The notes beneath the pieces were generated by a model that was not told where the DNA came from, made no database searches, and was given only the letters and a program-made list of their open reading frames with translations. The position numbers and the translations under genes are program-made. 64,000 nucleotides of DNA. Source: Thiorhodovibrio frisius. Lineage in GTDB: Bacteria > Pseudomonadota > Gammaproteobacteria > Chromatiales > Chromatiaceae. Shown here in pieces: positions 8,340-40,109 of this stretch (position 1 is the first letter of the stretch; each line of letters begins with the position of its first letter). Location: contig NZ_CP121471.1 of the NCBI RefSeq assembly GCF_033954835.1, positions 4,768,501 to 4,832,500 of the forward strand, in the 5' to 3' direction.

Positions 8340-8408
8340 CGCGCATAGCGCGATGCTACCCCGGCGGATTAATCGGCTATTTCCAAAAAGGCTCCATAGA
8401 AACCAGCA

Positions 8409-23994: not shown

Positions 23995-24781
<787 letters not shown>

Positions 24782-24880
24782 GGTTCGTCAGTCGCAAGGG
24801 TGCCGGGTAAGGGAAGTAAAGGCCGCCAGCATAACAGAGGGCGATGAGCGTCCGCGCAAGCGCGAATCAGGAAAAGGCCG

Positions 24881-26137
24881 TTAGGCGCCGTCAACACCGG
24901 ACTCCAAATCGGTCAGGAGGGCTTGGATCACCCGCTCTTCTTCAATCACCTGCCCACGCGCTTGCATGGCCCGGCTGAGCTCCGGGTCCCATTCGGCGGT
25001 GACCGGGCCGTCAGTCAACGGCTTGCCTGAATCCGATGCGTCGAGGTAGTCCGCCGCACCCATGCGCCAAGGGAGCGCACCGTGGCGATTAATGATGCCG
25101 TTGGCGATGCAGATGCCGGGCCAGTCGAAGTCACCGTGGTATCTGAGCTGAGCTCCGACTCCGGCGAGCTGGGTCAGCAAGGTGGTGACCGCTGCGCTAG
25201 GTTGGCCTCGGGTGCAAATCAATGGGGCGCAATCCGAACCCAGGGCATTCGCGGCCTCGGCGACGACGGCGGGGTTCTCGCAGATGGAAATCGGGGTCGT
25301 GCCTGGGGTCCAGACCGGCGGATCTTTCAGGAGCTGTCTCAGGGTGAGGTAGAGCGGCTCGCCACTGCCGGCGGCGGCATGGATGATGGACGCGGTGGCG
25401 CCGCCCCCGTCAATGCTCAGGTTTAGAACCAAGACCGTGCTGGTGATGCCGCCGCCGACCAGAACACCGGCAGCCGCCCACAGCTCATCAGTGGAAGCCG
25501 TCTGGTCGTCGACGCACAGGGCGCGTTTGACCAGGGTGGCCACGGGCCGACCGTCGTCCAGGCCGTGGGCGTCGCCGAGACAACCGGCCGCCACTGTGCT
25601 CAGGGTTTTACCCCGTTGCGGGAGACATTGGAGAACACTCAGGGCTTGGCGCAAGAGCGTTTCGGCCCGAACAGGATCCTGGCCGGCGAGCCGCTTCAAG
25701 AGGCCCTCGCGCTCCAATGCCGCGAGCCATGTGATCGCATTGAGCCGTTTTGCCTCCGCGCCATGGCGGTCGAAGACCTGCCGCCAGGCCCGCTGGCGAT
25801 CTTCACGTTCTGCGCCGAGATCGCGGAGCGGTCCACTAAGAGCTTCGATGGCCGTGCGCAGATTCGGGGCCAGATCGGCGCGTTGCAGGATGTCTTCCAA
25901 GTACTGTAAAGGCAGGCCGAGTCGGTTGCCGCTGCTGGGCCGGCGACCCAGCAGCTCGTCCAGCGCCCGGCGCTCCTGCTCGGTCGGATCGGCGATGGAG
26001 ACCCGCTCCGCGCCGCCGCGCTCCAGTCCGACCCGGACCGCTTGCAGGATGCGTGCAAGTTCGGGGCGATCCAGCAAGGACCTGAGCCGCTGCAAATCGA
26101 CCCCGGAATGGTCAGAGCAGAGATTGCTGCGGGTCAT
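24881..26137 (-). CDS. jetD: Wadjet type II nuclease subunit JetD (TIGR02679/DUF2399)
   Basis: A 418-aa protein of the TIGR02679 family with a C-terminal DUF2399 Toprim-like domain. Seen: ENPAVVAEAANALG and the acidic YHGDFDWPGICIAN motif expected for metal binding in the topoisomerase-like nuclease that cuts closed circular DNA in Wadjet systems. The chosen ATG (MTRSNLCSDHSG) lies inside the end of jetC, giving a 26-bp overlap, so translation is probably coupled. Together with jetC, jetB and jetA it forms a type II Wadjet set. Longer in-frame starts overlap jetC further and are rejected. Confidence 0.9.
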   Translation of the reverse strand: MTRSNLCSDHSGVDLQRLRSLLDRPELARILQAVRVGLERGGAERVSIADPTEQERRALDELLGRRPSSGNRLGLPLQYLEDILQRADLAPNLRTAIEALSGPLRDLGAEREDRQRAWRQVFDRHGAEAKRLNAITWLAALEREGLLKRLAGQDPVRAETLLRQALSVLQCLPQRGKTLSTVAAGCLGDAHGLDDGRPVATLVKRALCVDDQTASTDELWAAAGVLVGGGITSTVLVLNLSIDGGGATASIIHAAAGSGEPLYLTLRQLLKDPPVWTPGTTPISICENPAVVAEAANALGSDCAPLICTRGQPSAAVTTLLTQLAGVGAQLRYHGDFDWPGICIANGIINRHGALPWRMGAADYLDASDSGKPLTDGPVTAEWDPELSRAMQARGQVIEEERVIQALLTDLESGVDGA

Positions 26138-29100
26138 GATCCTCTCGTTCCATGACGTCCGCTTCCTCGGCGACCGGTGCGCGCATCGGCGGCGTCTCGT
26201 CGGGACGGCGCTGGACACCGTCCCAAGTCCAGCGCGAGATATAGACAGCGTCGATGCCCTCCTGGCGCACCAGCTGGGCGATGGCCAGACCCGGCACCTC
26301 GGCATAACAGCCCCATTCCCGCTCGCTGGTGAGCATGAAATCCAGGTCAAATTGGGCCATGAGCCCCAGGCATTTGGCGCGCGAGTCGTCGTCGATACCG
26401 GCGAAGGCCTCGTCGAGCATCACCAGACGCGGGGCCTTGGGGGCGGCACTGCCGTAGTGGCTGGAGGCGGCGGCGAACAGCGGCAGGGTGACCACCAATG
26501 CGCGCTCGCCGCCGGAGGCAGGTCCGTAGGCGGGACGCCAGCGACCGCCCTGCCAGCGCTCGACGGTAAATCGGTGCCAGCGGCGGTAGTCCAGGGCATG
26601 GGCCAGATGCTGGATCAGGGTGCCGCCGTCGTCGGACTGGCGGACCTCGTCGATGCGCCGTTGCAGGAACTCGCCCACCGCGCTGCGATCCTCGTTGGAC
26701 CAGGCGGCGACGGTCTGGCGCAACAGCCGCTTGCGGGCCTCGGCGAGACCGGCCGGTGCCGCGCCGGACTCCTCGTCCAGTGGTACCCAGGCCAGACGCA
26801 GTTTCATGCCGGTGCTGGTGGGTCGGTGCTCCAATTCCTTGTTGATGCGCTCCACCATGCGCTCGCCGTCGCCGATGAGCTGTTGCAGGTGGGTGGCCAC
26901 ATCGCTCATCAGGTGGGCCTCAAGCAGCTCGCGTTCCTTGGCGTCGAGCAGCGCCTTGCGCTCGGCGATCTCGGCATCCAGATTGTCGGCCAGCTCGTCG
27001 GGACCGCAGGGACGGGATTGGAAGATGACCCGGATCAGCAACAGCTCCCCATCCTGCTCGATATGCGCGGAATGGTTGTAGCGCGACAGGGTCTGCTGCA
27101 AGGGCTGGAAGCGATCGTAGAGCCCCTGCTGCTGACGGCGCCAGGCGTCCTCGCCGTGGTCCACCGCGATCAGGCTCTGCTCCATCTGCCGGGCCAGGCG
27201 CACCGAAGGATCCACCGGCCAAGGCGGTTCACGCTCCGGGGCTTCGAGCCCTGGAGTCGCGATCCCCAGCAGCCCGACCTGGGTGAAGCGGGCCAGGATG
27301 TCGATGGCGTCTTGGCGTTGTTGGTCTCTGTCGCCCAGGCTCGTGGTCAGACTGGTGTGGCGCTCGCCCAGGCGACTGACGTCGGCGGAGATTTCGATCT
27401 GCTTTTCCTGGCAAATTTTTTGTTGTTGCTGAAAGTCCTTCTCTTGCTGCTCGGTGTCGCTGATACGCCGCTGCAATTGATCGACGCCTTCGCCAAGGGT
27501 TTCCCGCAGGGTATGCATAATCGCCTCGGCCTCGCGCTGTCTGAGCGTGGCTCGCTCCAGCTCGTCGGCCTGCTCGGCGCGCTGCTCCGCCAATTCGGAG
27601 ACCCGCTCGGCCAATTCGCCGGTTTGCCGAAGCTGGTCCCAATGGTGCCGCAGGCCGGGCCAAAAGGCCGCTGCCTGCTTGTCATACTGAGACAGGGTCT
27701 CGGCGACCCCGTCAAGACCTTCCGTCTCCGCAGGGAGATCCAGGTCGAGGGCAGCTTTGTCGCGCGCATCCCGACAGTGCTCGGTGGCGGCTCGGCTCTG
27801 CTCCAGAATGCCGGTCAGGTGCTCGACGGCTGCGCGGCTCTTGGCCAGGCGCTCGCGCAGGTCGTCATGGCGCTGATGGGCCGCGCGCACCGCTTGATCG
27901 CTCGGGAGGGCCTGCCATTCCAGTTCCAGGGATGACAGCCGGTTTGCCAGCTGGTCGATGTCCTCGCTCAGAGTCTGGATCTGCTGTTGCAGTTGCGCCC
28001 GTGTCTCGGCAATCTCCCGCAAGCGCCGCTGCCGGGCTGCTTCCCGTGCCGCATGACCGATGTAGGCCGGTTCGGGCTTGGCCCAGGCGCCGGATGCGGG
28101 GCCGAGACACCAGCGTCCGTCGCCGTCGACCCAGGCGCCATGCGCCTGCTCGCCCCAGCCGATGCCGGCGAGGATGCCGGCAAGCGTCTCCGGCGCGATC
28201 CGGGCCGCTGCGGTGTTGTTGGGATCGATGGCAATCTTGAGCGCCTGGTGCAGGTTGCGGGCGGTGGGTGTGATCGGCCCGAGCATCCGGTCCCAGGTCT
28301 TGGCATCGCGCAGCGTCCCATCGGGCAGGACCCAGGCGTCCAACAAACCGCTGGACTCCAGAGCGGCTTCAAGCCCTGCCCGTTCGTTAGCGGACAGGCT
28401 GTCTGCGAACTCCAGGAGCTGCCAGAAGGGCGCGCCGTCGCGCTCCTTGCGTGCCTCCGGATCGCGGGTGTAAGGGATCGGCGGCTGGGCAAGCTCGCCC
28501 CGCTCGATGCGGTCTTGTTCTTCTGCCAGCGCGGTGACGACCGCTTGGGCCTCCGCGCGAGTGCGCGCGGCTGCTTCCTTGGCGCTGCGCAAGCAGTCCC
28601 GCGCGCTGTTGTAGCTTTGCAGCAGGGCAGGCCGCGCGGGGTTGTCGCCAGATAAGGTTTGGCACCAGTCCTGAAGCTCGGCGAGCAAGATCTCCGGGTC
28701 ATCCAGTCGCAATTCACGATTAGTCTTCAGTGCCTGGCGCAGGGCCGAGACCAGCGCAGTAGCTTGCTGGTCGACGACCTCGGCGGCTTGGACGCGGTCC
28801 TGATTCAGGCGCTCCATGGTCTCGATGGCTTGCTCGCGGCGCTCCCGGTGCCGTTGTTCCTCTTGTCTGGCCGCATCCAGTGCCTGGATGAGGCTGCGCA
28901 CTTGCGCGATGGCTTCAGTGCGACGCTGCACCGCGCAGCGGACGGCCTCGGCGGCCTGGCCGATGGCGGGGTCCGAAGCGGATGACTGACCCGGACCGCC
29001 ATCGGGCAGAACCAAGGGGGCGAGCGCGCTTTCATGCGCCCTGGCGATGCCCGCGCTGCGCGCCAGTTCGAGCCAGGTGCTCAGGTCTCGCATGCATGCC

Positions 29101-30272
29101 GCGCTCTGCTTCGCGCACGCCTGCTGTTGCGTGCGCAAGCGGGTTTCCTGGCGCTGGCTGTCGGCGCGCAGGCGCTCGAGCTTGTCCAGCAACGCCTGGC
29201 AGCGCTCGCGACCTTCCACCAAGCGAGCCGAGGCCTCCTTGAGCCGGTTGGCGTCGCGCATCTCGGGGCTGTCGCGCAGGGTCTGCAAGCGGGCGCGACA
29301 CTGCATCAGCTTGGTGTTGAGGACTTCGTAGCGCCGTTCCTCCTGGACTTTGGTCGCCCTGGCCTCGCGCAGGGCCTGGGCGGTCTCGCGCACTTCCGTG
29401 CCGATCTTTTCCCAGGCGCCTTGGGCCTGGCGCACGGCTTGCGCTCGGCGTCGGGCCGCCACGGCACAGTAGCCGCGGTAATGCTGCAGAAAGTCGCCCA
29501 CGGAGGCGCGGGCCTCATTGAGACCGTCCAGGGTCTTGCGCTCTTCTTCCAGGTTGCGGAAGGCGTCCGCCACATCGTTGAGCACGGACTGGTCCAAGGG
29601 CGGCAATGCCTCGGTGAGGGCCGAGGACATGGCCTTTTCGTCCGGGCGTTTGGACAATTGCGGCTGGCGCAGTTGGATCAGCAGATTGAGCAGGGCCTCG
29701 TAGCGATGCGGGCCGAGTCGGAAGAGCAGCGCGTCGACCCGGGCACGGTACTGGGCGGAACTGGTGTACAGCTCGCCCTGTTTGCCCAGTGCGTCGAGAA
29801 GCCGATCCCTGGACAGGGCGCGGCCGTTGCCGTCCACCAACATCAGGTCGCGGCGCACGCGCTGAGGAGTGATAAAAAACCAGCGCTCCGGTGCGCCGCG
29901 TCCGGCCACGGCGCGCATGCCGCAACCCAGAGTGCAGAACTCCAGCGTGCCCCCATTGTCCCGGCCGAATTCCATCCAGACGTAGCCCAAGCGCTCCTGA
30001 TACTGGCCACCGAGCAGAAGGTTCCATTCCATGCGCTTGCCCGGATCGCCGTCTGGCTCGACGCGCGAGGGGATGAGTTGCCCGTCCAGCAAGAAGGGCA
30101 AGGTCATGGCCAGCACCTTGGACTTGCCGGTGCCATTGTTGCCACGCAGCAGCAGGTTACCGTCCCTGAGCCAGATCTCCTCGTCGTCGTAGTGGAACAG
30201 GTCCACCAAGCCCAGGCGCAGGGGTTGCCAGCGGGGTCGCAAGGGCAAGGGAGCGTCTTGGATTTCGTTCAT
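26112..30272 (-). CDS. jetC: Wadjet type II SMC-like ATPase JetC (TIGR02680)
   Basis: A 1386-aa SMC/Rad50-like ATPase, the DNA-extruding motor of type II Wadjet. Walker A is LLLRGNNGTGKSK (Lys50). Long coiled-coil arms rich in Glu, Arg, Gln and Ala run from about 215 to 1120, with a hinge-like part near 590-750. The ABC signature GPASGGERALV and Walker B PRLVMLDEAFAGID are near the C-terminus. Both arms look intact. In type II systems jetC normally follows jetB directly. Here the jetB stop is 6.8 kb upstream, and other genes lie between, so jetC must be transcribed through the island or from a new promoter. AATAGATG at the start suggests that an old jetB stop once overlapped it. Confidence 0.92.
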   Translation of the reverse strand: MNEIQDAPLPLRPRWQPLRLGLVDLFHYDDEEIWLRDGNLLLRGNNGTGKSKVLAMTLPFLLDGQLIPSRVEPDGDPGKRMEWNLLLGGQYQERLGYVWMEFGRDNGGTLEFCTLGCGMRAVAGRGAPERWFFITPQRVRRDLMLVDGNGRALSRDRLLDALGKQGELYTSSAQYRARVDALLFRLGPHRYEALLNLLIQLRQPQLSKRPDEKAMSSALTEALPPLDQSVLNDVADAFRNLEEERKTLDGLNEARASVGDFLQHYRGYCAVAARRRAQAVRQAQGAWEKIGTEVRETAQALREARATKVQEERRYEVLNTKLMQCRARLQTLRDSPEMRDANRLKEASARLVEGRERCQALLDKLERLRADSQRQETRLRTQQQACAKQSAACMRDLSTWLELARSAGIARAHESALAPLVLPDGGPGQSSASDPAIGQAAEAVRCAVQRRTEAIAQVRSLIQALDAARQEEQRHRERREQAIETMERLNQDRVQAAEVVDQQATALVSALRQALKTNRELRLDDPEILLAELQDWCQTLSGDNPARPALLQSYNSARDCLRSAKEAAARTRAEAQAVVTALAEEQDRIERGELAQPPIPYTRDPEARKERDGAPFWQLLEFADSLSANERAGLEAALESSGLLDAWVLPDGTLRDAKTWDRMLGPITPTARNLHQALKIAIDPNNTAAARIAPETLAGILAGIGWGEQAHGAWVDGDGRWCLGPASGAWAKPEPAYIGHAAREAARQRRLREIAETRAQLQQQIQTLSEDIDQLANRLSSLELEWQALPSDQAVRAAHQRHDDLRERLAKSRAAVEHLTGILEQSRAATEHCRDARDKAALDLDLPAETEGLDGVAETLSQYDKQAAAFWPGLRHHWDQLRQTGELAERVSELAEQRAEQADELERATLRQREAEAIMHTLRETLGEGVDQLQRRISDTEQQEKDFQQQQKICQEKQIEISADVSRLGERHTSLTTSLGDRDQQRQDAIDILARFTQVGLLGIATPGLEAPEREPPWPVDPSVRLARQMEQSLIAVDHGEDAWRRQQQGLYDRFQPLQQTLSRYNHSAHIEQDGELLLIRVIFQSRPCGPDELADNLDAEIAERKALLDAKERELLEAHLMSDVATHLQQLIGDGERMVERINKELEHRPTSTGMKLRLAWVPLDEESGAAPAGLAEARKRLLRQTVAAWSNEDRSAVGEFLQRRIDEVRQSDDGGTLIQHLAHALDYRRWHRFTVERWQGGRWRPAYGPASGGERALVVTLPLFAAASSHYGSAAPKAPRLVMLDEAFAGIDDDSRAKCLGLMAQFDLDFMLTSEREWGCYAEVPGLAIAQLVRQEGIDAVYISRWTWDGVQRRPDETPPMRAPVAEEADVMEREDHDPQQSLL

Positions 30273-30521
30273 CTATTGGGGGCGCTGTTGAACCGAAAAG
30301 TCTCGAAGGGCGAGAAGGGGGGGGTCAATGTCGCGATACGCAGAGATGCATGAAAAAAGGTCCATGCTCGGAGCAGCAGGACAGGCTTGTTGATGCGATA
30401 TTCGGCACTCAGAGTATCAGTGCCTACCGATACCTGGGACAGATCGTCACCGATGCCGTCGATATCCGACTACAGCAGGATGACCTCATCGTCACAGGTT
30501 ATGAGCAGATTCGATTCGGGA

Positions 30522-30926
30522 TCAACGCCGTGGAAGGCAGAACCCTGCCTGAGCGAAGTGCTGATCAAAAGCAAACGCGGTAGACAGGTTCAATCGACGC
30601 ATCACGACGAAAGAGATGCAGTCCACCATCCCCCATTGCTTGTCTCCATGCTGCTGATAAAGCGCGAAGCCAGCATCGAAAAGTTCCGGAGTCAAAGACA
30701 CGACAGTCACTCCGGCAGAGTCTCGGAAGTCCTGGATGATTTGGACCGCTGCCAATCGGGCAAACCGTGACAGGGCGTTGCCGATTTCGAGCAAGACCGC
30801 GTCCGTGACGACGACAGGGTGGTCGTTATAGCGATCAGACAACCAAAGAGCTTCCGCGTGATGTTGGTCGTCCTCGTTAACCAACGCGATCACGTAGCCG
30901 GTGCCAACAAAGACAGCCTTACGCAT
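30522..30926 (-). CDS. PIN-domain (VapC-like) protein with altered first active-site residue
   Basis: A 134-aa PIN-domain protein, the toxin type of VapBC systems (Mg-dependent RNase). It starts MRKAVFVGTGYVIALVNEDD. PIN toxins normally have Asp where Gly8 stands here (VDTxxxIAL). The other acidic residues look present: Glu in VLLEIGNAL, Asp in GMVDCISFVVM, Asp in AFAFDQHF. Loss of the first Asp usually destroys activity, so this may be a dead toxin. The gene overlaps the end of the upstream antitoxin-like gene by eight bases. Confidence 0.85.
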   Translation of the reverse strand: MRKAVFVGTGYVIALVNEDDQHHAEALWLSDRYNDHPVVVTDAVLLEIGNALSRFARLAAVQIIQDFRDSAGVTVVSLTPELFDAGFALYQQHGDKQWGMVDCISFVVMRRLNLSTAFAFDQHFAQAGFCLPRR

Positions 30927-31152
30927 CAGGCTCCCCGTTCACGTAGGACTCATGATTGACCGACAAATCGGATGGACCCTGAACACGAACGCGCCGCAAA
31001 CGCGCAAACAACGACTCCGAACCCTCATCCGCCCCGCTCTGCGAGTCGACCAACAGGACACGCACGCTCTTACCGTCGAGCGCATGGCGATACTGCATCG
31101 GAATCTCGAGCATGCCATCATGGGCAATGGTTTGAAATTCGATCGCGTTCAT
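30919..31152 (-). CDS. Antitoxin-like protein paired with the PIN gene
   Basis: A 77-aa protein, MNAIEFQTIAHDGMLEIPMQ onward, resembling small antitoxins encoded directly upstream of PIN toxins. It overlaps the PIN gene by eight bases, the coupling expected of a VapBC-type pair. No clear DNA-binding motif can be read by eye. The assignment rests on context and general resemblance. Confidence 0.65.
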   Translation of the reverse strand: MNAIEFQTIAHDGMLEIPMQYRHALDGKSVRVLLVDSQSGADEGSESLFARLRRVRVQGPSDLSVNHESYVNGEPDA

Positions 31153-31218
31153 GGATTCACTCCAATGATGAGGTGCGCTGCTGTGTAGGATTCAAGCTTA
31201 CCACCAAAAGATTATGCG

Positions 31219-31605
31219 TCATCGAGCCTTGCCGACTCGGCCGATGCACGTAGTCTCCAGCGCGTAGCAAGCGATTGCGGGGAGTGGGCGAACGCTGTCG
31301 GGTCGAGCCCGGCCAGCGCCGTGGCGTCGATTCGTGGTTTGGGTATAGACGCCGTTGAGCTGGCGCATTCCCTTGGAGAGGTTGGCATCGGGCGTCTCGA
31401 CGACGAAGTGATAATGATTGGTCATCTCGCAGTAGGCGTGGCAGCGCCAGTTGAACCGACGGCAGACCTCGCCAAGCAAAGTCGGCCAATCCAGGCGGTC
31501 CTGATCGTCGCGATAGATTGCCTCGCGCCGATCACCGCGCGCGGTCACATGATAGAGCCCGCCAGCAAGCTCAATGCGTAGAGGTATGGACACGTGAAAG
31601 ATCAT
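31219..31605 (-). pseudogene. Chimeric remnant: transposase N-terminus joined to jetB C-terminus
   Basis: The first ~92 codons match a REP-associated/IS200-like tyrosine transposase (IELAGGLYHVTARGDRREAI, then CHAYCEMTNHYHFVVETPDA with the HUH-type His pair and NLSKGMRQLNGVYTQ). After NRRHG the frame continues as RPDSVRPLPAIACYALETT, which matches the end of the intact JetB (ESDGVCPLPAIARYAVEAP). So a transposase 5' part is fused in frame to a diverged jetB tail. The catalytic Tyr region of the transposase is lost. Part of direct repeat copy A. Confidence 0.8.
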
Positions 31606-31760
31606 AGGTTAACGGTGCCGGATTGCAAGACCTGCCCCCAATTCCCCGCCTTCTGATCTCAGGCGACCTGATCGAGAAATAGCTCGCGAAGAACCTCCGG
31701 ACGCTTCTGCGCAACACGAATGAGCGATCGCACCGCACCGCTCGGTTCGCGCCGGCCCTG
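31324..31760 (-). repeat. 437-bp direct repeat, copy A
   Basis: Almost identical to 32923-33359 (about 15 mismatches by my eye count, no indel, offset 1599 bp). It carries the 5' part of the transposase and, to its right, the last ~35 codons of the HTH antitoxin gene (RREPSGAVRSLIRVAQKRPE in the relevant frame at about 31656-31760). The flanks differ completely from copy B on both sides. Confidence 0.88.
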
Positions 31761-32000
31761 ACACTCTCAGGACCCTCGGCGAGTAACGGCTATACGCGGA
31801 TACCGGACAGTCCGCTCTATCTCCGGATGCTCTGCTCACGCCCCAGAGCTGCCACTGGACTTACGTCGCCCGGCGGCAGCTGAAGAAGCGAGACCAGACG
31901 TTATCTGCGAGGACGAAGGACTCCACGGCGGTCGTCGGAAGGCCAAGATGTTCCTTTAAGTAGCATATAGCGCTACAATGCGCCAAAAAGGAGATCCCTA
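31606..32000. other. Gene-free stretch with antitoxin 3' remnant and ParDE promoter
   Basis: The left part (31656-31760, minus) is a truncated copy of the 3' end of the HTH gene at 33258-33566. From 31761 to about 31945 I see nothing recognisable. The right end holds the promoter region of the ParD-like gene, including the palindrome TAGCGCTA (31968-31975) inside a GTAGC-N7-GCTAC inverted repeat (31960-31976). Confidence 0.6.
31960..31976 (+). promoter_or_regulatory. Candidate operator of the ParDE pair
   Basis: Inverted repeat GTAGCATATAGCGCTAC, containing the perfect palindrome TAGCGCTA, centred about 33 bp before the ParD-like start. Antitoxins of this family usually repress their own promoter through such sites. 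AAGGAG follows at the ribosome-binding position. Confidence 0.45.
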
Positions 32001-32210
32001 ATGGCCGTCAACGTCAAGCTGCCCGAGGAGTTCGTCAACCAGGCGAAGCACTATGCCCGGGCTGAACATCGCTCGGTGCCCAAGCAGATCGAATATTGGT
32101 CGCAGATCGGCAAGATCGCCGCAGAGAACCCGGACCTGCCATTCTCGGTGATTCGCGAGATCCTGATCGCCGATCAGGAAGAGGCGGTTGGCGAGTACCA
32201 GTTCGGCTGA
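32001..32210 (+). CDS. ParD-like antitoxin
   Basis: A 69-aa protein, MAVNVKLPEEFVNQAKHYA then RSVPKQIEYWSQIGKIAAEN, matching the ParD-like antitoxin family with a ribbon-helix-helix fold. AAGGAG lies eight bases before the ATG. Its TGA stop shares a base with the ATG of the next gene (TGATG), so the pair is translationally coupled. The pair lies on the plus strand, opposite to the Wadjet genes, within the gap between two fragments of a second jetB. Confidence 0.85.
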   Translation: MAVNVKLPEEFVNQAKHYARAEHRSVPKQIEYWSQIGKIAAENPDLPFSVIREILIADQEEAVGEYQFG

Positions 32211-32488
32211 TGCGCCTGCTCGTTACGCCGACTTTCGCTCGCGCAGTCAAGAAGCTCCATCGCAGGCAAAAGGTCGATCTCGACGAAGCGGTGAGAATCA
32301 TCGCGCAAGATCCCGGGATCGGAGAGACCAAGGTCGGCGACCTCGCCGGTGTCCAGGTCTACAAGTTCCGTACGGCCAACCAACTGTGCCTGGTCGCCTA
32401 CCGGGTCATGGACGCAGACACCGTCAAGCTCCTGATGGTCGGCCCACACGAGAATTTCTATCGAGACCTTAAGCGCGTGGAAAGCTGA
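32210..32488 (+). CDS. RelE/ParE-family toxin
   Basis: A 92-aa toxin of the RelE/ParE fold, starting MRLLVTPTFARAVKKLHRRQ and ending LLMVGPHENFYRDLKRV, a typical C-terminal signature (H-x-x-F/Y-Y-R-D). Start overlaps the antitoxin stop by one base. It looks intact. Whether it acts as a ribosome-dependent RNase or gyrase inhibitor cannot be told from sequence. Confidence 0.87.
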   Translation: MRLLVTPTFARAVKKLHRRQKVDLDEAVRIIAQDPGIGETKVGDLAGVQVYKFRTANQLCLVAYRVMDADTVKLLMVGPHENFYRDLKRVES

Positions 32489-32505
32489 CCAAGCGAGTAG
32501 CGTCG

Positions 32506-32724
32506 TTACGCGCGCGATTCCCAACCATGTATCCGCTCGGGAATTAGGCCGGTCGCCTCCTGGATGCGCTGGACGATGGCGTGACGCTGGTTGAACAGAT
32601 AGGCCCGTTCGTCCTCGTCCAGCGCGTCGTAATAGAGCAGGGGGTCGTCGAGCAGGCGCTCGGTGAGGCGCTGGCGCAGCTCGCAGTTGCGGGCCTCCGC
32701 GGACGTCGGGGTCAGGTCTTGCAA
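32506..32724 (-). pseudogene. Internal fragment of a second jetB
   Basis: About 65 residues in this fragment match the middle of the intact JetB. The string NCELRQRLTERLLDDPLLYY here corresponds to NRELRQRLTERLLDDPVLYY there, followed by DEDERAYLFNQRHAIVQRIQ in both. At DNA level 32540-32700 aligns with about 37500-37660 with few differences. Nothing upstream or downstream of the fragment continues jetB: the transposase joins on its 5' side, the ParDE pair on its 3' side. It is a remnant. Confidence 0.85.
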
Positions 32725-33204
32725 TCAAGCACTCGTCGGCTTGATGGGTAGGTGCACTGGCGATTCAATCCCGTTTTCAAGCCGGCCCACGGATCGACCT
32801 AAGGTGGAGTAGTGTACACCTAATTCATCGGCGATCTCCTGCATGCGGTAGACGCCGCTCTGATAGGCCCGTGCTATCGCCTCGGCTCGGACGGGGTAGA
32901 AGAGGTGACACACCAGCCCATTGCGTCGATTCGTGGTTTGGGTATCGACACCGTTGAGCTGGCGCATTCCCTTGGAGAGGTTGGCATCGGGCGTCTCGAC
33001 GACGAAGTGATAATGATTGGTCATCTCGCAGTAGGCGTGGCAGCGCCAGTTGAACCGACGGCAGACCTCGCCAAGCAGAGTCGGCCAATCCAGGCGGTCC
33101 TGATCGTCGCGATAGATTGCCTCGCGCCGATCACCGCGCGCGGTCACATGATAGAGCCCGCCAGCAATCTCAATGCGTAGATTTCTGGACACGTGAAAGA
33201 CCAT
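32725..33204 (-). pseudogene. REP/IS200-type transposase, internally deleted
   Basis: 159 aa, against roughly twice that in full members. The N-terminal half is the usual GLYHVTARGDRREAIYRDDQ and CHAYCEMTNHYHFVVETPDA (HUH His pair), NLSKGMRQLNGV. At HLFYPVRAEAIARAYQSG the central part with the catalytic Tyr is missing, and the reading jumps to the C-terminal HTH-like segment YRMQEIADELGVHYSTLGRS. It is therefore likely inactive. Its 5' part is repeated at 31324-31605. It ends one base before the jetB fragment. Confidence 0.82.
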
Positions 33205-33359
33205 CGGTTAACGATGCCGGATTGCAAGACCTGACCCCAATTCCCCGCCTTCTGATCTCAGGCGACCTGATCAAGAAATAGCTCGCGAAGAACCTCCGGA
33301 CGCTTCTGCGCAACACGAATGAGCGATCGCGCCGCATCGCTCGGTTCGCGCCGACCCTG
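32923..33359 (-). repeat. 437-bp direct repeat, copy B
   Basis: Partner of 31324-31760. It spans the 5' part of the transposase, the spacer and the 3' end of the HTH gene. Here the HTH gene continues to a complete start, so copy B preserves the original right-hand context while copy A is cut at both sides. Confidence 0.88.
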
Positions 33360-33566
33360 CTCCCATTCCTGGAGGGTGCGCACCGAGACACCCAAGAGTT
33401 TTGCGAATTCGCTCTGCGGCATCTTGACGCGATAACGGGCGAGCGCCACCGGGCTATGAATACCCCCTGTCGTTCCGGCCTTCATTTCGCGGATGGATTC
33501 GAGCAACTCGGCGCCGATGTCCCGCGCTGCATCCCTTTCGAGGAGTTCTTGTTCAGTCTTCGGCAT
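33258..33566 (-). CDS. HTH (XRE) antitoxin-like regulator without visible toxin
   Basis: A 102-aa protein with an acidic N-terminus (MPKTEQELLERDAARDIGAE) and a XRE-type helix-turn-helix (YRVKMPQSEFAKLLGVSVRT, then LQEWEQGRREPS). This is the NadS/HigA layout, in which a RelE-type toxin gene normally precedes it. No toxin gene is visible upstream; only a short open stretch ending NAAREMLDHAED overlaps the start. ATG 33566 has GGGAG about ten bases upstream. The 3' third is duplicated at 31656-31760. Confidence 0.8.
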   Translation of the reverse strand: MPKTEQELLERDAARDIGAELLESIREMKAGTTGGIHSPVALARYRVKMPQSEFAKLLGVSVRTLQEWEQGRREPSDAARSLIRVAQKRPEVLRELFLDQVA

Positions 33567-33814
33567 GATCCAGCATCTCCCGCGCAGCATTGAGCACATG
33601 GTTAAGTAAACTGTCACTTGAACTAGGCGTCACCGTTGCTCGGCCTCTGAATGCCCTTAGTGCTACCGTTCTCGCTTGGAACTAAATGCAACCACGTGAT
33701 TCACTCAGCGACTAACTTGGATCGCGAGCCGGGTGAATCCGACGATTGGCTCAAATCTTTGACAACCCCGCCAAGGCAGTTCTGGAAACGAAGAACTCAT
33801 GCTATCCTGTTAAC

Positions 33815-34051
33815 ATGAAAACATGCCCTTATCGCTCCATGACTAACCAAAAGCAGAAGCGACGAGCTCCGGCCACGGGCACACTCGTGGGCACGCGATT
33901 CCAATCGGACATGCTTGACGCGCTCGACGCATGGCGGAGGGATCAAGAAGATATTCCGACTCGCCCCGAAGCGATCAGGCGCTTGGTTGAACTGGGCATG
34001 TCGATCCGCTCCGCGACACCCGCAGCGCGGACGCAATACAGTAAGGAATGA
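33815..34051 (+). CDS. Ribbon-helix-helix protein
   Basis: A 78-aa protein whose centre reads GTLVGTRFQSDMLDALDAWR, then PTRPEAIRRLVELGM, a CopG/Arc-type ribbon-helix-helix. Starts at 33746 and 33839 are also possible; no ribosome binding site decides. It ends 15 bp before the DUF262 gene on the same strand, so it could regulate the DUF262-HEPN-methyltransferase operon. A candidate -10 (TATCCT) sits just before the ATG at 33815, so the message may be nearly leaderless. Confidence 0.6.
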   Translation: MKTCPYRSMTNQKQKRRAPATGTLVGTRFQSDMLDALDAWRRDQEDIPTRPEAIRRLVELGMSIRSATPAARTQYSKE

Positions 34052-34066
34052 ATCGATGGTTGCCCA

Positions 34067-35143
34067 ATGAAGAAGCCGAAAGAGATCGCCCCCAAGTTCA
34101 CAGCAGAGAAGGATGCGGCCGAAGAGCAGATCCGTGAATTGTCCAAGCGGATCGAGTTCTATCTGACCGAATACTCTGTAGAACTGCTCGCCAACAAGAT
34201 GCGCAACGGTGACTTTTTCGTGCCGCCCTACCAACGCGAGTTCACCTGGGAGCCTGAACGCAAGTCCAAGTTCATCGAGTCTCTGCTAATCGGTTTGCCC
34301 ATCCCTTTCCTCTTCTTCTGGGAGAGACCAGACGGAAATCTGGAGATCGTGGATGGTTCGCAGCGGCTGCGAACGATTGAGGAGTTCGTCTTGGGAGAAT
34401 TCTGTCTCGGTGAGTTGGAGAGCTTGACTGCCGTCTCCGGATTCACGTTCTCGGAACTTCCAGAATCAAGGCAGAAGAAGATCAAGAACCGCTCGATTCG
34501 CGGCATCATCCTGAACGAGCACGCCGATGAGCAGGCCCGTTTCGATATGTTCGAGCGCATCAATACGGGCAGCAAGATCGCGAACAAAGCTGAGGTGCGT
34601 CGCGGCGCGCTCGGGGGACCTTTCATGGACCTCATTATCGAGATTTCCTCACACTCGAAGTTCGTCGCTTTGGCTCCGGTGCCGCCGAAATCCGTCCAGA
34701 AACGGGAGCGAGAGGAACTGGTTGCCCGTTTCTTCGCTTACAGCGATGGACTCGAAGGTTATCGCGACCGCCCCTCGGAGTTCGTCTTCAAATACGTGAA
34801 AAAGATGAACGACGAGGTCGCTTCAGACCCCGATAAGATCGAACGCTACCGTAACCGATTCCTGGAGATGATCGACTTCGTCGAACGAGTCTTTCCTCAC
34901 GGATTCAGACGAACCCCCAAGGGTACGGCCAGCCCTCGCGCTCGGTTCGAGGCCATTGCGGTCGGATCCAGGCTGGCCTTGGATACTCGCCCAGACTTGG
35001 CCGAACAGGAATTCGTAAGCGTCGAGTCATGGCTGAATGGCGACGAGTTCAAGGCGGTCACGGGTTCCGACGGCGCGAATGCCATCGCTCGTTTGAGAGA
35101 CCGCATCGGTTTCGTCAGAGACAAGCTCTTGGCCGACGCATGA
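34067..35143 (+). CDS. DUF262 (ParB/GmrS-like) protein
   Basis: A 358-aa protein with an N-terminal DUF262 domain: FFVPPYQREFTWEPERKSKF, PIPFLFFWERPDGNLEIVDG and the DGSQRLRTI motif (the DGQQR motif of the family), FERINTGS. DUF262 proteins bind and hydrolyse nucleotides in type IV (GmrSD) and phosphorothioate-linked (SspE) restriction. The C-terminal DUF1524 HNH nuclease of those proteins is absent here. Its stop overlaps the next start by four bases (ATGA), which makes it the first gene of a coupled three-gene operon. I infer a sensing or restriction role. Confidence 0.85.
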   Translation: MKKPKEIAPKFTAEKDAAEEQIRELSKRIEFYLTEYSVELLANKMRNGDFFVPPYQREFTWEPERKSKFIESLLIGLPIPFLFFWERPDGNLEIVDGSQRLRTIEEFVLGEFCLGELESLTAVSGFTFSELPESRQKKIKNRSIRGIILNEHADEQARFDMFERINTGSKIANKAEVRRGALGGPFMDLIIEISSHSKFVALAPVPPKSVQKREREELVARFFAYSDGLEGYRDRPSEFVFKYVKKMNDEVASDPDKIERYRNRFLEMIDFVERVFPHGFRRTPKGTASPRARFEAIAVGSRLALDTRPDLAEQEFVSVESWLNGDEFKAVTGSDGANAIARLRDRIGFVRDKLLADA

Positions 35144-35871
35144 GTACCTTGGCCGTTAGCTTCCTGGAGCGAAAGGCAGAGGTGAAGGCATACTTGGATT
35201 TTCTATCCGTGATGGAGCAGCAAACCAAGCAGGGTCCTCCGCGCTTCGAAGGTGCCGAGCACCCAATCACCGTCGAACAGCAAAGAATTCTCTATTCGAC
35301 CGTTTACCTGCAATTGTACAATCTCGTCGAAGCGACGATATCCCTCTGCATTCAGGAAGTTACGGACGCAACGAAAAACAATGTGGCATGTACACCGAAC
35401 GACTTGAATGATGACCTTCGCCGCGAATGGGTGCGCGCGATCGCACGCACCCACGAGCCACTGACCCCTGACAATCGATTGAAGCATGCACTTCTGCTTT
35501 GCGATCACTTGGTCTCAGCTCTACCGATCAACAGCTTCGATTTGGACAAGGCAGGTGGAGGAAATTGGGACGATTCTGCGATAGAGCTCATGACCAAGCG
35601 ACTTGGGTTTAGGCTGCGGATTGGGCGACCGATCTACAAAGCGATCAAGAGACATATTCGAGATGACATGGGACCCTTAGCCTTGGTGAAGAATCTCCGC
35701 AATCGCCTGGCGCACGGATCCATCTCCTTCGTGGAGTGCTCCGAGAACGAAACCTTTTTAGGTCTTCAGAACTTGGCGAATAGCACTCTGAATTATCTAG
35801 AGGCTGTAGTCGGCTGTTTCGATAAGTATATTGAAGGACACGAGTATCTCCTGCCGGATCGGCGGCCATGA
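35140..35871 (+). CDS. HEPN-domain protein (MAE_28990/MAE_18760-like)
   Basis: A 243-aa mostly helical protein with the HEPN catalytic-type motif R-x4-H as R187-H192 (LRNRLAHG). Helices around YLQLYNLVEATISLCIQEVT resemble the MAE_28990/MAE_18760 HEPN-like nuclease family. HEPN effectors are commonly RNases in defence systems. Start and stop both overlap the neighbours by four bases (ATGA at each end), so it is fully embedded in the operon. The start MSTLAVSFLERKAEV is chosen for the overlap; longer in-frame starts overlap DUF262 more deeply. Confidence 0.78.
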   Translation: MSTLAVSFLERKAEVKAYLDFLSVMEQQTKQGPPRFEGAEHPITVEQQRILYSTVYLQLYNLVEATISLCIQEVTDATKNNVACTPNDLNDDLRREWVRAIARTHEPLTPDNRLKHALLLCDHLVSALPINSFDLDKAGGGNWDDSAIELMTKRLGFRLRIGRPIYKAIKRHIRDDMGPLALVKNLRNRLAHGSISFVECSENETFLGLQNLANSTLNYLEAVVGCFDKYIEGHEYLLPDRRP

Positions 35872-36992
35872 TGAAGATTAAGCCCAAAAAAAACCAAAAA
35901 AATACAATTAATGTTAAAGGGGTAGATTTATTCTGCGGTGTTGGAGGATTGACTTACGGCCTGTCGCGCGGAGGCATTCGGATCGTAGCTGGCATCGACA
36001 TTGATGCCAGTTGCCGTTATCCCTACGAAGCCAACAACTCGGCTCGATTCATCGAGCATGACGTCGCAAGGCTAAAACCGGATGAGATAACGCCTTACTA
36101 CGAAAGCGCAGACTACACTTTGCTCGCCGGATGTGCACCTTGTCAGCCATTCTCGACCTATAGCCGCAGTGGTCGCAATCGGGAGTACGAATCGCAATGG
36201 CCGCTCCTCTCCTCCTTCGGCAGATTGGCGGAGGCGATCCAGCCCGACTTGGTCACCATGGAGAACGTCCCCCAGTTGGCGGATCATCCGGTTTTCGGAG
36301 AACTGCTCGCGAGCCTTGCGGGTTACGCAACTTGGTGGAAGATCGTCGAATGCTCAACGCTCGGCATTCCCCAGACCCGGAAACGTTTGGTGCTGCTTGC
36401 ATCTCGTCTCGGCAAGGACTCTTTGGGCCTGATAGAGGAATCCAACCAGGAAGCAACAGTCCGGCAGACCATCGGAATGCTTCCTCCCATTGATGCCGGG
36501 GAAATTCATCCAGGAGACGAATTGCACATGGCATCATCGTTGAGCCCGCTGAATCTAGCTCGAATCAAGGCGTCGCGCCCCGGGGGAACTTGGCGCGATT
36601 GGCCAGATGAGCTGCAGGCCGTGTGTCACCGCAAGCCCAGTGGCGCCACATATCCGAGCGTCTACGGACGAATGGATTGGGATCGGCCGGCTCCGACGAT
36701 CACGACCCAATGCTTCGGCTACGGGAATGGTCGATTCGGGCACCCAGAGCAGCCGCGCGCCATCTCTCTGCGCGAGGCAGCCATGTTGCAAACCTTCCCG
36801 GCAGATTATTCGTTCGCTCCTGCTGGAGCCAGGTTCAAGTTCAACAAGATGGGGCGTTTGATCGGCAATGCGGTGCCCGTTCGGCTGGGAGAGGTGATCG
36901 CCCGGTCGCTGATCGCTCATGTTTTCGCTTGCTCGTCCCAGCCTCCAGGAACTGAAGCCAATCAACCACCAACGACTCCCCGGCTTCATTGA
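35868..36992 (+). CDS. DNA cytosine-C5 methyltransferase
   Basis: A 374-aa m5C methyltransferase. Ordered motifs: I DLFCGVGGLTYGL, IV GCAPCQPFS (catalytic Cys92), VI MENVPQL, VIII PQTRKRLVLL, IX RPAPTITT with the LREAAMLQTFP region, and X IGNAVPV. It has a complete set, so activity is expected; the recognition sequence is unknown. It is the third gene of the DUF262-HEPN-methyltransferase operon (ATGA overlap). A short Lys/Asn-rich N-terminus (KIKPKKNQKN) precedes the first motif and is AT-rich compared with its neighbours, a hint of transfer. The 3' end overlaps a vsr remnant on the other strand. Confidence 0.93.
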   Translation: MMKIKPKKNQKNTINVKGVDLFCGVGGLTYGLSRGGIRIVAGIDIDASCRYPYEANNSARFIEHDVARLKPDEITPYYESADYTLLAGCAPCQPFSTYSRSGRNREYESQWPLLSSFGRLAEAIQPDLVTMENVPQLADHPVFGELLASLAGYATWWKIVECSTLGIPQTRKRLVLLASRLGKDSLGLIEESNQEATVRQTIGMLPPIDAGEIHPGDELHMASSLSPLNLARIKASRPGGTWRDWPDELQAVCHRKPSGATYPSVYGRMDWDRPAPTITTQCFGYGNGRFGHPEQPRAISLREAAMLQTFPADYSFAPAGARFKFNKMGRLIGNAVPVRLGEVIARSLIAHVFACSSQPPGTEANQPPTTPRLH

Positions 36993-37125
36993 GGAACTGG
37001 TGCTCCCAGAGGTGGAGGACGCACCACCCGCTGATCTGGAGCCGAGCATCCGTATCTTGCGTCTCGCGCTCGATTCGGGGCGATCTTGTTCTCCCACCAC
37101 TCCCGATTGGACCTCGGATCAGTCA
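36841..37125 (-). pseudogene. Frameshifted remnant of a Vsr-type mismatch endonuclease
   Basis: On the minus strand one frame reads MTDPRSNREWWENKIAPNRA-RD and, after a shift near 37059, another reads DTDARLQISGWCVLHLWEHQ. Together they match the C-terminal half of Vsr endonucleases (pattern EW/FWxxKixxNxxRDxxxxxxLxxxGWxVLxxWEHE). The N-terminal catalytic half is missing; jetB sequence takes its place. Vsr repairs T:G mismatches from m5C deamination and is usually encoded with m5C methyltransferases, here the adjacent one, whose 3' end it overlaps antisense. Confidence 0.65.
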
Positions 37126-38369
37126 TCCAGTCTTGCAACTCGGCTAATCCGCGGCGCTTCCACCGCATAACGGGCGATGGCCGGGAGGGGGCAAACGCCG
37201 TCGGATTCGAGCCTGGCCAAGCCCAGGCCAGCCAATCGCTCGGCGGCCTCCCGGCAGAAGGATTGTCCGGCATCGGGCTCCTTGGCGGCCTTCTTCCAGT
37301 AGCGTCCGAACTGCTCGGTCCAGCCCCGATAGGCGTCATGGAGGCTGGTCCAGGATTGCGCTTGATCTTGGGACAGGCGCTCCGCGAGATGTCCGGCCAT
37401 CAATAGGGTGATGTGTCCCTCGGTGCCCTCGGAGGGCATGCGCTGGTCGGCGAGGTCGCCCTCCGGGTCGACCATGGCGATGCCCTCGGCGCGCATCTCG
37501 GGGACCAGTCCGGTGGCCTCCTGGATGCGCTGGACGATGGCGTGACGCTGGTTGAACAGATAGGCCCGTTCGTCCTCGTCCAGTTCGTCGTAATAGAGCA
37601 CCGGGTCGTCGAGCAGACGCTCGGTGAGGCGCTGGCGCAGCTCGCGGTTGCGGGCCTCGGGGGTGTCGGCGACGAAGCGGGCGGTGATGGCGCCGATGCG
37701 CTGGTCGAGTGAATCCGCTGGCTGTTCCAGGGTATCGACCAGGGAGGGGCCGCGCCGGGTCACCAGGAGCGCGGAGAGCACGTGACGGTCGATGTCGTAG
37801 AGGACGTCCTTGGTCTCGTTCCGGATATAGGCGTCTTCGCTGCCGGCCACTCGGACCAGCACGCCGAGATTCAGCAGGAGACGGACGACGGCCACCAGGT
37901 CGCGGCGATCTTCTTGGCTGCGCAGCTCGAACACCAGCCCGCTGGCCTGGATGGCAGGCTCGGCGGACTGGTCCATAGCGGCCTTGCCCAGACGCCCCAG
38001 GGTGCTCTGCATCTCGCCGCGCTCCAGGCCCGCCAACACCAGGCACAGGAGGGCGTAGCGGCGGCGCGTGAAGTCCAGGTCCACCGGGCGTTTGCCGGGG
38101 CGGGCGGCGCGGCTGCCGTCGTCGTGCTCGGGCGCGGTCTTGGCCAGGCGTGCGAAGTCGGCTTCAAGACGCAGGTCCCAGCGGGTCTCGCTGTTCAGCC
38201 AGTCCCTGAGCCAGTCGATATGGCGTTTGACCAGTCGGTAGGCCGGGTGATCGGCATAGAGCAGCGGCTGCATCAGCAGGGCGCGCAGGGCCCGGCGCCG
38301 CTCGTCCTCTCTGAGCTGGGAGAGACGGTCGCCCAGTTCGAGCTTGGGTTCGAGGCTGGTCTGGCTCAT
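37119..38369 (-). CDS. jetB: Wadjet type II subunit JetB (TIGR02678/DUF2398)
   Basis: A 416-aa MukE-like accessory subunit of the TIGR02678 family, e.g. RRALRALLMQPLLYADHPAY, HIDWLRDWLNSETRWDLRLE and DELDEDERAYLFNQRHAIVQ. It starts inside the jetA stop (ATGA overlap). It looks full length, but its last ~10 residues (ISRVARLDD) run up to the junction with the vsr remnant, so the natural end may differ slightly. A second, broken copy of the gene is represented at 32506-32724 and 31219-31325. Confidence 0.9.
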   Translation of the reverse strand: MSQTSLEPKLELGDRLSQLREDERRRALRALLMQPLLYADHPAYRLVKRHIDWLRDWLNSETRWDLRLEADFARLAKTAPEHDDGSRAARPGKRPVDLDFTRRRYALLCLVLAGLERGEMQSTLGRLGKAAMDQSAEPAIQASGLVFELRSQEDRRDLVAVVRLLLNLGVLVRVAGSEDAYIRNETKDVLYDIDRHVLSALLVTRRGPSLVDTLEQPADSLDQRIGAITARFVADTPEARNRELRQRLTERLLDDPVLYYDELDEDERAYLFNQRHAIVQRIQEATGLVPEMRAEGIAMVDPEGDLADQRMPSEGTEGHITLLMAGHLAERLSQDQAQSWTSLHDAYRGWTEQFGRYWKKAAKEPDAGQSFCREAAERLAGLGLARLESDGVCPLPAIARYAVEAPRISRVARLDD

Positions 38370-39994
38370 ACGGCGGCCTCGTCGCCTGGCGCCGGATTCC
38401 GCGCTGGCGTCCGCTCAGTCTGCGGGCTTGGGATGGCCCCGGCCTCCAGATCGGTCATGCGCACCCGATAGTCGCGGCCGCCGAAGGCCCCGTCCGGGGT
38501 CTCGATGACCGCGCGGGTCTCGGGTCCCAGTGGCTCCAGATGGATGTCGATGGTGCCGTCGCCAGTGACCGTCTGCACGGCCTGCTCCGGATCCCGGGTG
38601 GCCGCCAGGGCCTCGCCGAGCAGACGCAGGAAGAGGTCGAAGCTGGCCGGATCCAGACGTCCGATCGCGCTGAGCCGGGTCTCCTCGCCGGTCGCCAGAC
38701 GGCGGCGGGCGTCGCGCGCCTGGAGGCTCTCCCGATCCAGCCGCGCCCGGAGCTTTTGCTTATCCGCGCTGCGGTCCCGGACCTTGGGCGGGACGCCGCG
38801 CTTGGCGTGGCTGCCGGTTTCGCGCAGACGCGGGCTGATTCGCAGCGGCGGCGCCTCGGCCCAGGGGCGCGACGGCGGCACCGGCTCCTCGGCGCCGGCC
38901 TGCAGGCTGTCGTCGTCGATGCCCAGATGGCGCGCCGGGGTCAGCCCGAAGGCGGCGCGCCAGAGCCGATGGGCCTCGGCATCAGTCTTGCAGTCCATGA
39001 ACCAGGCGGCCAGAGTGCGATAGTCGGCGGAGCGGTCGCTGCGCCCGAGCCGGCGCTCGTTGAGCTGGACCACGGCGTCGACCAGATCGGAGATGGCCCG
39101 CCGAGCGCGGGAGCGCAGCAGCTCCGCCTGGGACGGTCGGTCCGCCGCGCCGATGAACCAGGCCTCAAGCCCGGACCAGCGGGCCTGCCATTCGTCGAGC
39201 ATTTTGGCCCGATCCAGGACCGGGTCGAGCTGAGTGGGCTCGGCGGCGTCCAGACCGGGCGCCGGGGCCAGGTCGGCGGCATCGCGCTCGGCGATCCGCT
39301 CCAGCAGGGGCTGGAAGGCCGGATGCTGCTGGATGTCGAGGATCAGCCCGGCGATCTCGGCGGATCGCGTCACCAGGTCGCCGATGAATCGACGCAGATA
39401 GTCCAGCAGACGATCCTTGTAGTCGATGAAGGCCGCCCGCTCGGCCCGGCGCAGATCGAGCCCTCGTGCCAGTCCGGCCATGAAGTCGCGGGCATTGTCG
39501 GCAAGATCGGTAAAGACCCGGGTGATGTCGCGCAAGAGCAGGTGCGCCTTGGCGCTATCGAGCCCGGCCTCGCTGTCCTGGGTGTCGAGCAGGGTCCGCA
39601 AGGCACGCAACTGGCTGGCGATGTCGGCCAGGGCCACAGACTGGAGGGCGCCATGATGTCCAAGCATGCGCTCATAGGTGGCCAGGGCAGCCTGGGCGGC
39701 CTCGCCCTCGCGGGTGATCTGGTAGAGATAGCGGGCGCGGTAGAAGTCCTCGACCGTGGTGACCCGGCTGGTGTCGGGCTCGGCCTGGAGGTTGCCCCAT
39801 TCGACCAGCTGGCCGAGCGCGGCCTGGACGGCATCGATGTCGAGTTGCCGGCCGTCGCGCCTGACGTGATCGAGCACATCTTCCGGACGCAGATGGACCA
39901 GGAAATGTTCCTTGGCCTCTGAGAAGGCCCGCATCAGGGTCCGGTAGAGGTCCGTCTTATCGGCGGTCAGGTAGTTGAAGCTGGTATCGGGCAT
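38366..39994 (-). CDS. jetA: Wadjet type II subunit JetA (TIGR02677/DUF2397)
   Basis: A 542-aa MukF/kleisin-like subunit of the TIGR02677 family. The N-terminal winged-helix region reads FNYLTADKTDLYRTLMRAFS then LVHLRPEDVLDHV, followed by helical bundles, and the C-terminus carries the conserved IDIHLEPLGPETRAVIETPD. It is the first gene of the Wadjet set and overlaps jetB by four bases. In Wadjet, JetA links the SMC-like heads and carries JetB. The only nearby promoter region is the 115-bp gap to the DUF4340 gene upstream. Confidence 0.9.
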   Translation of the reverse strand: MPDTSFNYLTADKTDLYRTLMRAFSEAKEHFLVHLRPEDVLDHVRRDGRQLDIDAVQAALGQLVEWGNLQAEPDTSRVTTVEDFYRARYLYQITREGEAAQAALATYERMLGHHGALQSVALADIASQLRALRTLLDTQDSEAGLDSAKAHLLLRDITRVFTDLADNARDFMAGLARGLDLRRAERAAFIDYKDRLLDYLRRFIGDLVTRSAEIAGLILDIQQHPAFQPLLERIAERDAADLAPAPGLDAAEPTQLDPVLDRAKMLDEWQARWSGLEAWFIGAADRPSQAELLRSRARRAISDLVDAVVQLNERRLGRSDRSADYRTLAAWFMDCKTDAEAHRLWRAAFGLTPARHLGIDDDSLQAGAEEPVPPSRPWAEAPPLRISPRLRETGSHAKRGVPPKVRDRSADKQKLRARLDRESLQARDARRRLATGEETRLSAIGRLDPASFDLFLRLLGEALAATRDPEQAVQTVTGDGTIDIHLEPLGPETRAVIETPDGAFGGRDYRVRMTDLEAGAIPSPQTERTPARNPAPGDEAAV

Positions 39995-40109
39995 CCGTTT
40001 CGTCGGCTCTTGAGTGGCGGGTGCTGCCTCTTGTCCTCCAGCTTGTCGATCAGCAACGATAGGGTATAGGAATCTGCAGACGAACTCCCGCTGGTTCAGT
40101 CCCCCGCGC

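Follow-up and report, generated by a model that had tools for sequence, protein, structure and literature searches.

The type II Wadjet system, an anti-plasmid SMC system, occurs in a divided form in a 64,000-nucleotide stretch of the Thiorhodovibrio frisius genome (contig NZ_CP121471.1, positions 4,768,501 to 4,832,500; hereafter, the window). The jetA-jetB genes (39994-37119) and the jetC-jetD genes (30272-24881) are all located on the minus strand in the order A-B-C-D, and 6,846 bp separate the end of jetB (37119) from the ATG of jetC (30272). With a probability of about 0.68, we consider this locus a functional Wadjet system whose genes are maintained in two half-operons that enclose a pocket of exchangeable, mostly defence-related genes, and the gap has the appearance of a site at which genes dock repeatedly, not of a single accident. 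In the proposed scheme, both jetAB and jetCD would be expressed, JetA, JetB, and JetC would assemble the SMC complex, and JetD would cut the captured DNA, as in the Wadjet systems studied so far. The jetB-jetC junction, in turn, would serve as the site at which the additional genes enter, leave, and are replaced.

Several features of the four genes are consistent with an intact system. Each protein scores well above the cut-off of its domain model, and the best PADLOC models are JetA2, JetB2, JetC2, and JetD2 (Table 1). The jetA and jetB genes overlap by 4 bp, and jetC and jetD by 26 bp, given a jetD start at the ATG at 26137. The jetD open reading frame (ORF), as listed, opens with a TTG at 26350; however, the ATG is the likelier start because TIGR02679 aligns only from residue 116 of the longer frame onward. 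JetC contains the SMC ATPase motifs GNNGTGKS (residues 44-51, with the lysine at residue 50), ASGGE (1252), and LVMLDEAF (1283), and JetD carries HGDFDWPG, an acidic Toprim-type motif. An earlier note on this DNA had placed the four genes at these coordinates on one strand, assigned them to type II Wadjet, and described the key motifs (Lys50, signature, and Walker B of JetC, and the acidic motif of JetD) as retained. All of this was confirmed, including the check through TIGR02677, TIGR02678, TIGR02680, and TIGR02679 that the note had proposed.

The same division was found in related purple sulfur bacteria. TIGR02680 matches above the cut-off were present in 8 of the 210 genomes of the family to which T. 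frisius belongs, and TIGR02678 at E <= 1e-8 recovered the same eight genomes in the order search (also 210 genomes). A search of contigs with JetC recovered six relatives, i.e. three Thiorhodococcus species, Thiocystis violacea, Imhoffiella purpurea, and Rhabdochromatium marinum; Thiorhodococcus drewsii and I. purpurea belong to the Chromatiaceae. One further genome (G073) was not counted as a carrier: it has no JetB, and its JetC match, located on a 3-kb contig, reaches 305 bits and thus remains below the cut-off. Four of the eight carriers have jetB and jetC on one contig, and besides the window these are T. drewsii (G069; spacing of about 6,700 bp), T. violacea (G206; about 7,100 bp), and G224 (about 4,300 bp). 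In none of the eight does jetB adjoin jetC. A separate 8.7-kb contig of T. drewsii (C74; L064, G069), left out of the locus counts, carries two deleted jetA-jetB fusion copies (1-537 and 8164-8682), which are 7.6 kb apart and enclose signalling genes like those beside jetA on contig C140.

Outside the family, jetB abuts jetC in 22/22 loci (<=81 bp by match coordinates), a set that is mostly actinobacterial and includes some near-duplicates (H3/H4, H10/H11). It comprises three loci from the class and phylum samples (G294, G345, G757) and the best place in each of 19 plasmid records, which together hold 21 JetC matches. In a midpoint-rooted JetC tree (19 rows), a single clade (support 97/98), with G224 at its base, unites the seven family loci, both the split ones and those with jetB and jetC on different contigs. 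Four contiguous proteobacterial loci are located beside this clade, and the placement of G224 is unsupported in the JetB tree (18 rows). Given contiguity in all outside loci and a single JetC clade, the split is most simply regarded as derived, perhaps once. Within the family, it constitutes the native state, because the relatives show a gap of similar size. The expectation of the earlier note that type II Wadjet genes normally form one contiguous unit holds for all 22 outside loci. Its proposal that equal spacing in relatives would mark the arrangement as native applies to the family, where the gap is similar, and fails against the contiguous loci, relative to which the split appears derived.

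While the position of the gap is shared, its content is not. T. drewsii carries a 572-amino-acid homologue of HEC-05 (2.8e-208; BrxU-like), a chemoreceptor, and a YhgA-like protein. T. violacea (L008) encodes ZorA2, ZorB2, and ZorE2 in one operon (1.4e-240, 1.3e-101, and 2.4e-148), that is, a complete Zorya II system, together with an opposite-strand gene that, judged by eye, resembles a sulfatase. In G224, the jet strand of the gap encodes a Ppl-like ATPase (6e-38) together with a Schlafen/AlbA_2 protein, and in T. mannitoliphagus type I restriction-modification (R-M) genes with a shortened hsdR follow two jetB copies on two contigs. Cargo of a recognised defence type is present in 4/4 loci that have both genes on one contig; as a control, 1 of the 10 window genes flanking the locus produced a PADLOC match at 1e-5, and this was an ABC ATPase matching ATPase models. 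The hallmarks of an embedded locus, defence genes between the genes of another system at the same position and with varied cargo, are present in all four. YhgA/Rpn-type genes were also observed just before jetC and on its strand in T. drewsii (L006:7175-8170), T. minor (L007:594-1613), and Rhabdochromatium, where two tandem copies occur (L010:799-1770 and 1869-2864); Transposase_31 was matched in the one that was scanned.

In the window, the gap is a mosaic: a three-gene operon and two toxin-antitoxin-like pairs occur alongside a jetB fragment and two transposase segments related to each other (Table 1). The G+C content of the gap (0.57) is below that of jetAB (0.69) and jetCD (0.67). Neighbouring genes of the DUF262-HEPN-methylase operon overlap by 4 bp each, with the 243-amino-acid reading of the HEPN protein starting at an ATG that overlaps the DUF262 stop codon. 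The operon probably works apart from Wadjet, as a restriction or abortive-infection-type module. Next to jetC, the small ORF upstream of the PIN gene is taken as its antitoxin by position. The two transposase copies share a 300-bp block (31319-31618 and 32918-33217, 96% identical). We also note that the two related Y1 segments (31219-31618 and 32725-33217) flank the ParDE-like pair and the jetB fragment, and that the end sequence of the Y1 segment, TTGCAAGACCTGACCCC, is found again beside jetC in T. mannitoliphagus. A second full Wadjet system in the T. frisius genome was considered as the source of the jetB fragment and rejected, as the genome contains one JetC match, one JetA match, and one JetB match plus the fragment itself. 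When the window gap was searched for further copies of the 3' terminus of jetB, the matches were only 9-13 bases long; an Rfam scan of 24000-41000 gave no match, and no direct repeat detected in 24780-40120 links the two ends of the locus.

Table 1. Features of the divided Wadjet locus in the window (coordinates refer to the window).
Feature	Coordinates	Strand	Evidence
jetA (JetA2; TIGR02677, DUF2397)	38366-39994	-	525 bits, cut-off 166; PADLOC PDLC00536 JetA2 1.5e-187
jetB (JetB2; TIGR02678, DUF2398)	37119-38369	-	309 bits, cut-off 125; PADLOC PDLC00543 JetB2 2.5e-127
C5 cytosine DNA methylase, third operon gene	35868-36992	+	PF00145 1e-47; best PADLOC match DrmMII 4.2e-86; PCQPF, ENV
HEPN protein (MAE_28990 family), 243 aa, second operon gene	35140-35871	+	PF18737 3.5e-24 on longer ORF 35029-35871; RNRLAH motif
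DUF262 protein (GmrSD_N), first operon gene	34067-35143	+	PF03235 3e-25; PADLOC NsnA 9.1e-55, PD-T4-2_A 1.1e-27
Small ORF upstream of DUF262 gene, gene status uncertain	33746-34051	+	no Pfam match
Helix-turn-helix regulator, MqsA-antitoxin-like	33258-33617	-	PF01381 4.3e-08, PF15731 1.6e-06
Y1 (IS200/RAYT-type) transposase copy, end joined to jetB fragment	32725-33204	-	PF01797 3.7e-08
jetB fragment (codons 236-291)	32536-32702	-	92% identical over 167 bp to 37497-37663; DUF2398 2.9e-15
ParD-like and ParE-like pair (32001-32210, about 32209-32488)	32001-32488	+	PF11903 5.7e-14, PF15781 2.7e-32
Second Y1 transposase copy, truncated	31219-31618	-	PF01797 3.4e-09
PIN gene (30522-30926) and small upstream ORF (30919-31152)	30522-31152	-	PF01850 8.2e-11 (PIN); small ORF without Pfam match
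jetC (JetC2; TIGR02680, SMC-type ATPase)	26112-30272	-	1215 bits, cut-off 463; motifs (see text)
jetD (JetD2; TIGR02679, DUF3323/DUF2399)	24881-26137	-	348 bits, cut-off 196; HGDFDWPG; ATG at 26137
Whole Wadjet locus with cargo	24782-40109		absent from same-genus genome G002, flanking genes 66 bp apart

The ratios of non-synonymous to synonymous substitution rates (dN/dS) argue for purifying selection on all four jet genes. Pairwise values among the Chromatiaceae loci (G224 excluded) range from 0.09-0.18 for jetA (10 pairs) and 0.09-0.24 for jetB (15 pairs) to 0.12-0.30 for jetC and 0.17-0.27 for jetD (15 pairs each), and comparisons with the window locus place the JetC heads under stronger constraint than the coiled coil. 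Together with the conserved motifs, these values suggest that the Wadjet machine has been kept in the window, in agreement with the earlier suggestion that function may persist. In 13/13 species pairs with values from both halves, the synonymous rate (dS) is lower for jetA or jetB than for jetC and jetD, which could reflect separate exchange of the two halves, codon bias, or gene-specific rates.

How the downstream half would be transcribed is less apparent. The earlier note had raised the possibility of a promoter specific to jetC-jetD; a simple scan of 30150-31450 returned no sigma-70-like sites and thus lends this no support. The PIN pair is encoded on the strand of jetC, 249 bp upstream of it, and from this orientation jetCD might be transcribed by read-through. 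In T. violacea, a promoter probably lies within roughly 860 bp before jetC, because the sulfatase-like gene located there is on the other strand. The stretch of about 25-40 bp before jetC (window 30280-30315; CCCTTCG..CTTTGCGGTTCAA type) is conserved among the relatives, with everything upstream differing, and is a possible boundary or leader.

Several observations, including the promoter scan, weigh against a functional Wadjet system enclosing a pocket for defence genes. A weak terminator-like hairpin is located just upstream of jetC (30315-30301). Disrupted genes occur in the relatives: jetC contains one internal stop in Imhoffiella and is in pieces in Rhabdochromatium, and jetA of T. drewsii is spread over two frames and two contigs, each of which could be a draft error. 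The other four of the eight carriers (G006, G070, G204, and G205) are drafts with jetB and jetC on different contigs; the contig end is reached 144 to 4,373 bp upstream of jetC without jetB, and both jetB contigs of G204 extend more than 6 kb beyond jetB without jetC. Moreover, the chemoreceptor, the sulfatase-like gene, and the transposases are non-defence cargo by the searches available, a T. mannitoliphagus cargo protein with RNase_H_2 and IS66 transposase matches has no PADLOC match, and nor does the HEPN protein of the window, although the DUF262 and methylase genes on either side of it do match PADLOC models.

Some of these findings, i.e. the broken jetC or jetA genes in three relatives and the lack of a detectable promoter before jetC, as well as the transposase and jetB fragments in the gap, would also be expected from a Wadjet system decaying within a defence island, in which the split is a step of the decay and the cargo a neutral hitch-hiker. 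We consider this explanation unlikely: the four window genes are of full length and retain their motifs, the dN/dS values do not exceed 0.30, the Zorya II of T. violacea is complete, and the cargo genes of the window overlap and bear motifs.

A functional Wadjet with a pocket for exchangeable genes also has to be set against a stable two-operon layout that arose once and whose intervening space is an ordinary defence island, at a site that does not attract insertions. The two explanations differ mainly over whether the jetB-jetC junction is special. All family loci with both genes on one contig are split, JetC forms a single clade, and Pfam revealed no integrase gene in the scanned ORFs of the window gap, the Y1 transposases being the sole recombinases there; each of these points would fit an ordinary island. 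Against it stand the events recorded at the jet genes themselves. In several species, the sequences diverge within about 20 bp after the jetB stop codon. In T. violacea (L008:2874-2924) and T. mannitoliphagus (one contig, L060:1211-1265), the 3' half of a tRNA-Phe gene is positioned precisely at the jetB stop. The T. mannitoliphagus half equals the tRNA-Phe of its own genome at 46/48 bases, the T. violacea half is 90% identical to the T. mannitoliphagus copy over 51 bases, and ARAGORN called tRNA-Phe in 6/7 matching loci tested. The 3' halves of tRNA genes are typical attachment (att) sites of tyrosine integrases. In T. minor, jetA is separated from jetB by a PIN gene and the first part of hsdM; the block containing them shares 89% identity with T. 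mannitoliphagus cargo over 816 bp, and the boundaries of the locus are thus still moving. On balance, we regard a site without special properties as improbable.

The scars around jetB point to insertion and recombination, though not to one particular mechanism. In two genera, represented by the window and T. mannitoliphagus (L060), a Y1 transposase end is joined to jetB at the same place, codon 236, and the fragment in T. mannitoliphagus continues to the jetB stop. The loci with a tRNA-Phe half contain no second half and the window locus contains none; no integrase was seen near the halves, the ORFs of the relatives having been scanned in part. A short sequence at 2.49 Mb of the genome of the window that matches the jetB-tRNA junction (L109) was discarded, as no jetB surrounds it. 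The sequence that precedes jetC in G224 is similar to the 3' end of jetB and includes a TGA that overlaps the ATG of jetC; this repeat is only suggestive, because equally high scores were obtained for 19 of 10,774 control windows. It is tempting to speculate that the jetB 3' end is a preferred landing site, that tandem jetB copies or fragments supply homologous boundaries, and that the Chromatiaceae Wadjet acts as a cassette array exchanging whole defence systems (R-M, Zorya II, BrxU-like, HEPN-methylase) while staying functional, yet we hold this extended model to be doubtful.

By comparison, a recent insertion specific to this strain, which would have broken a normal jetABCD operon and left jetCD probably poorly expressed, is highly improbable: it would account for the contiguity of jetB and jetC in the outside loci, the lower G+C content of the gap, and the transposase copies within it, but it was rejected given the same split with other content in relatives of several genera, the single JetC clade, and the transposase-jetB junction common to T. 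mannitoliphagus. Accordingly, the split between jetB and jetC described in the earlier note stands, whereas its origin from one insertion into the operon of this strain does not, also in view of the mosaic composition of the gap.

At a larger scale, the locus was gained or lost in one piece of about 15.3 kb, since it is missing as a whole from a complete genome of the same genus (G002). There, 66 bp after the DUF4340 gene comes the jetD-flanking gene of the window, which we take to be coaD-like. The other genome of the genus (G001) contains different genes after DUF4340, and neither of the two has a JetC or JetA match.

The core of Wadjet consists of kleisin, KITE, and SMC subunits, complemented by JetD with its Toprim domain, and all four subunits are required against plasmids in Bacillus subtilis (PMC10586767). 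Given this requirement, the persistence of the split under purifying selection, and the changing content of the gap, our data suggest that jetAB and jetCD can be expressed separately. For practical purposes, genes located between jetB and jetC in the Chromatiaceae lineage become candidates for defence genes, and annotation that requires contiguous jet genes may miss or mistype split loci. That systems can be fragmented by intervening genes has been remarked by the authors of PADLOC (PMC9252829). A literature search combining Wadjet with Chromatiaceae returned no paper, and no defence genes embedded in Wadjet were described in the titles and opening parts of abstracts covered, although an earlier description in the Payne 2024 preprint is possible.

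The type II Wadjet loci analyzed outside the family all have contiguous jetB and jetC genes, in contrast to the 6.8-kb gap of the window; contiguity is treated here as usual for type II Wadjet but not as part of its definition. The modules inside the gap are themselves familiar: the Zorya II copy of T. violacea has its matching genes in one operon and differs by its place between jetB and jetC, and MAE_28990 HEPN genes have been tabulated in operons with ParB nuclease and DNA methylase genes (PMC3710099), a composition shared by the DUF262-HEPN-C5 methylase operon, which, as far as this source goes, differs only in sitting inside a Wadjet locus. Likewise, the principle of embedding is already known. 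Defence genes have been reported within type I R-M and Hma clusters (PMC11411939; PMC12988326) and within R-M systems of Pseudomonas islands (PMC12629846), and both the Hma-embedded candidates and the GmrSD-like TgvAB in the type I R-M operon of V. cholerae are intact defence genes within a multi-gene system. One such embedded candidate, HEC-05, which has been equated with BrxU (PMC11411939), has a homologue in the T. drewsii cargo. What seems new is Wadjet as the host: the Chromatiaceae loci extend the principle of embedded defence to an anti-plasmid SMC system, with cargo that varies by species and, in T. violacea, comprises the whole of Zorya II, itself a multi-gene system.

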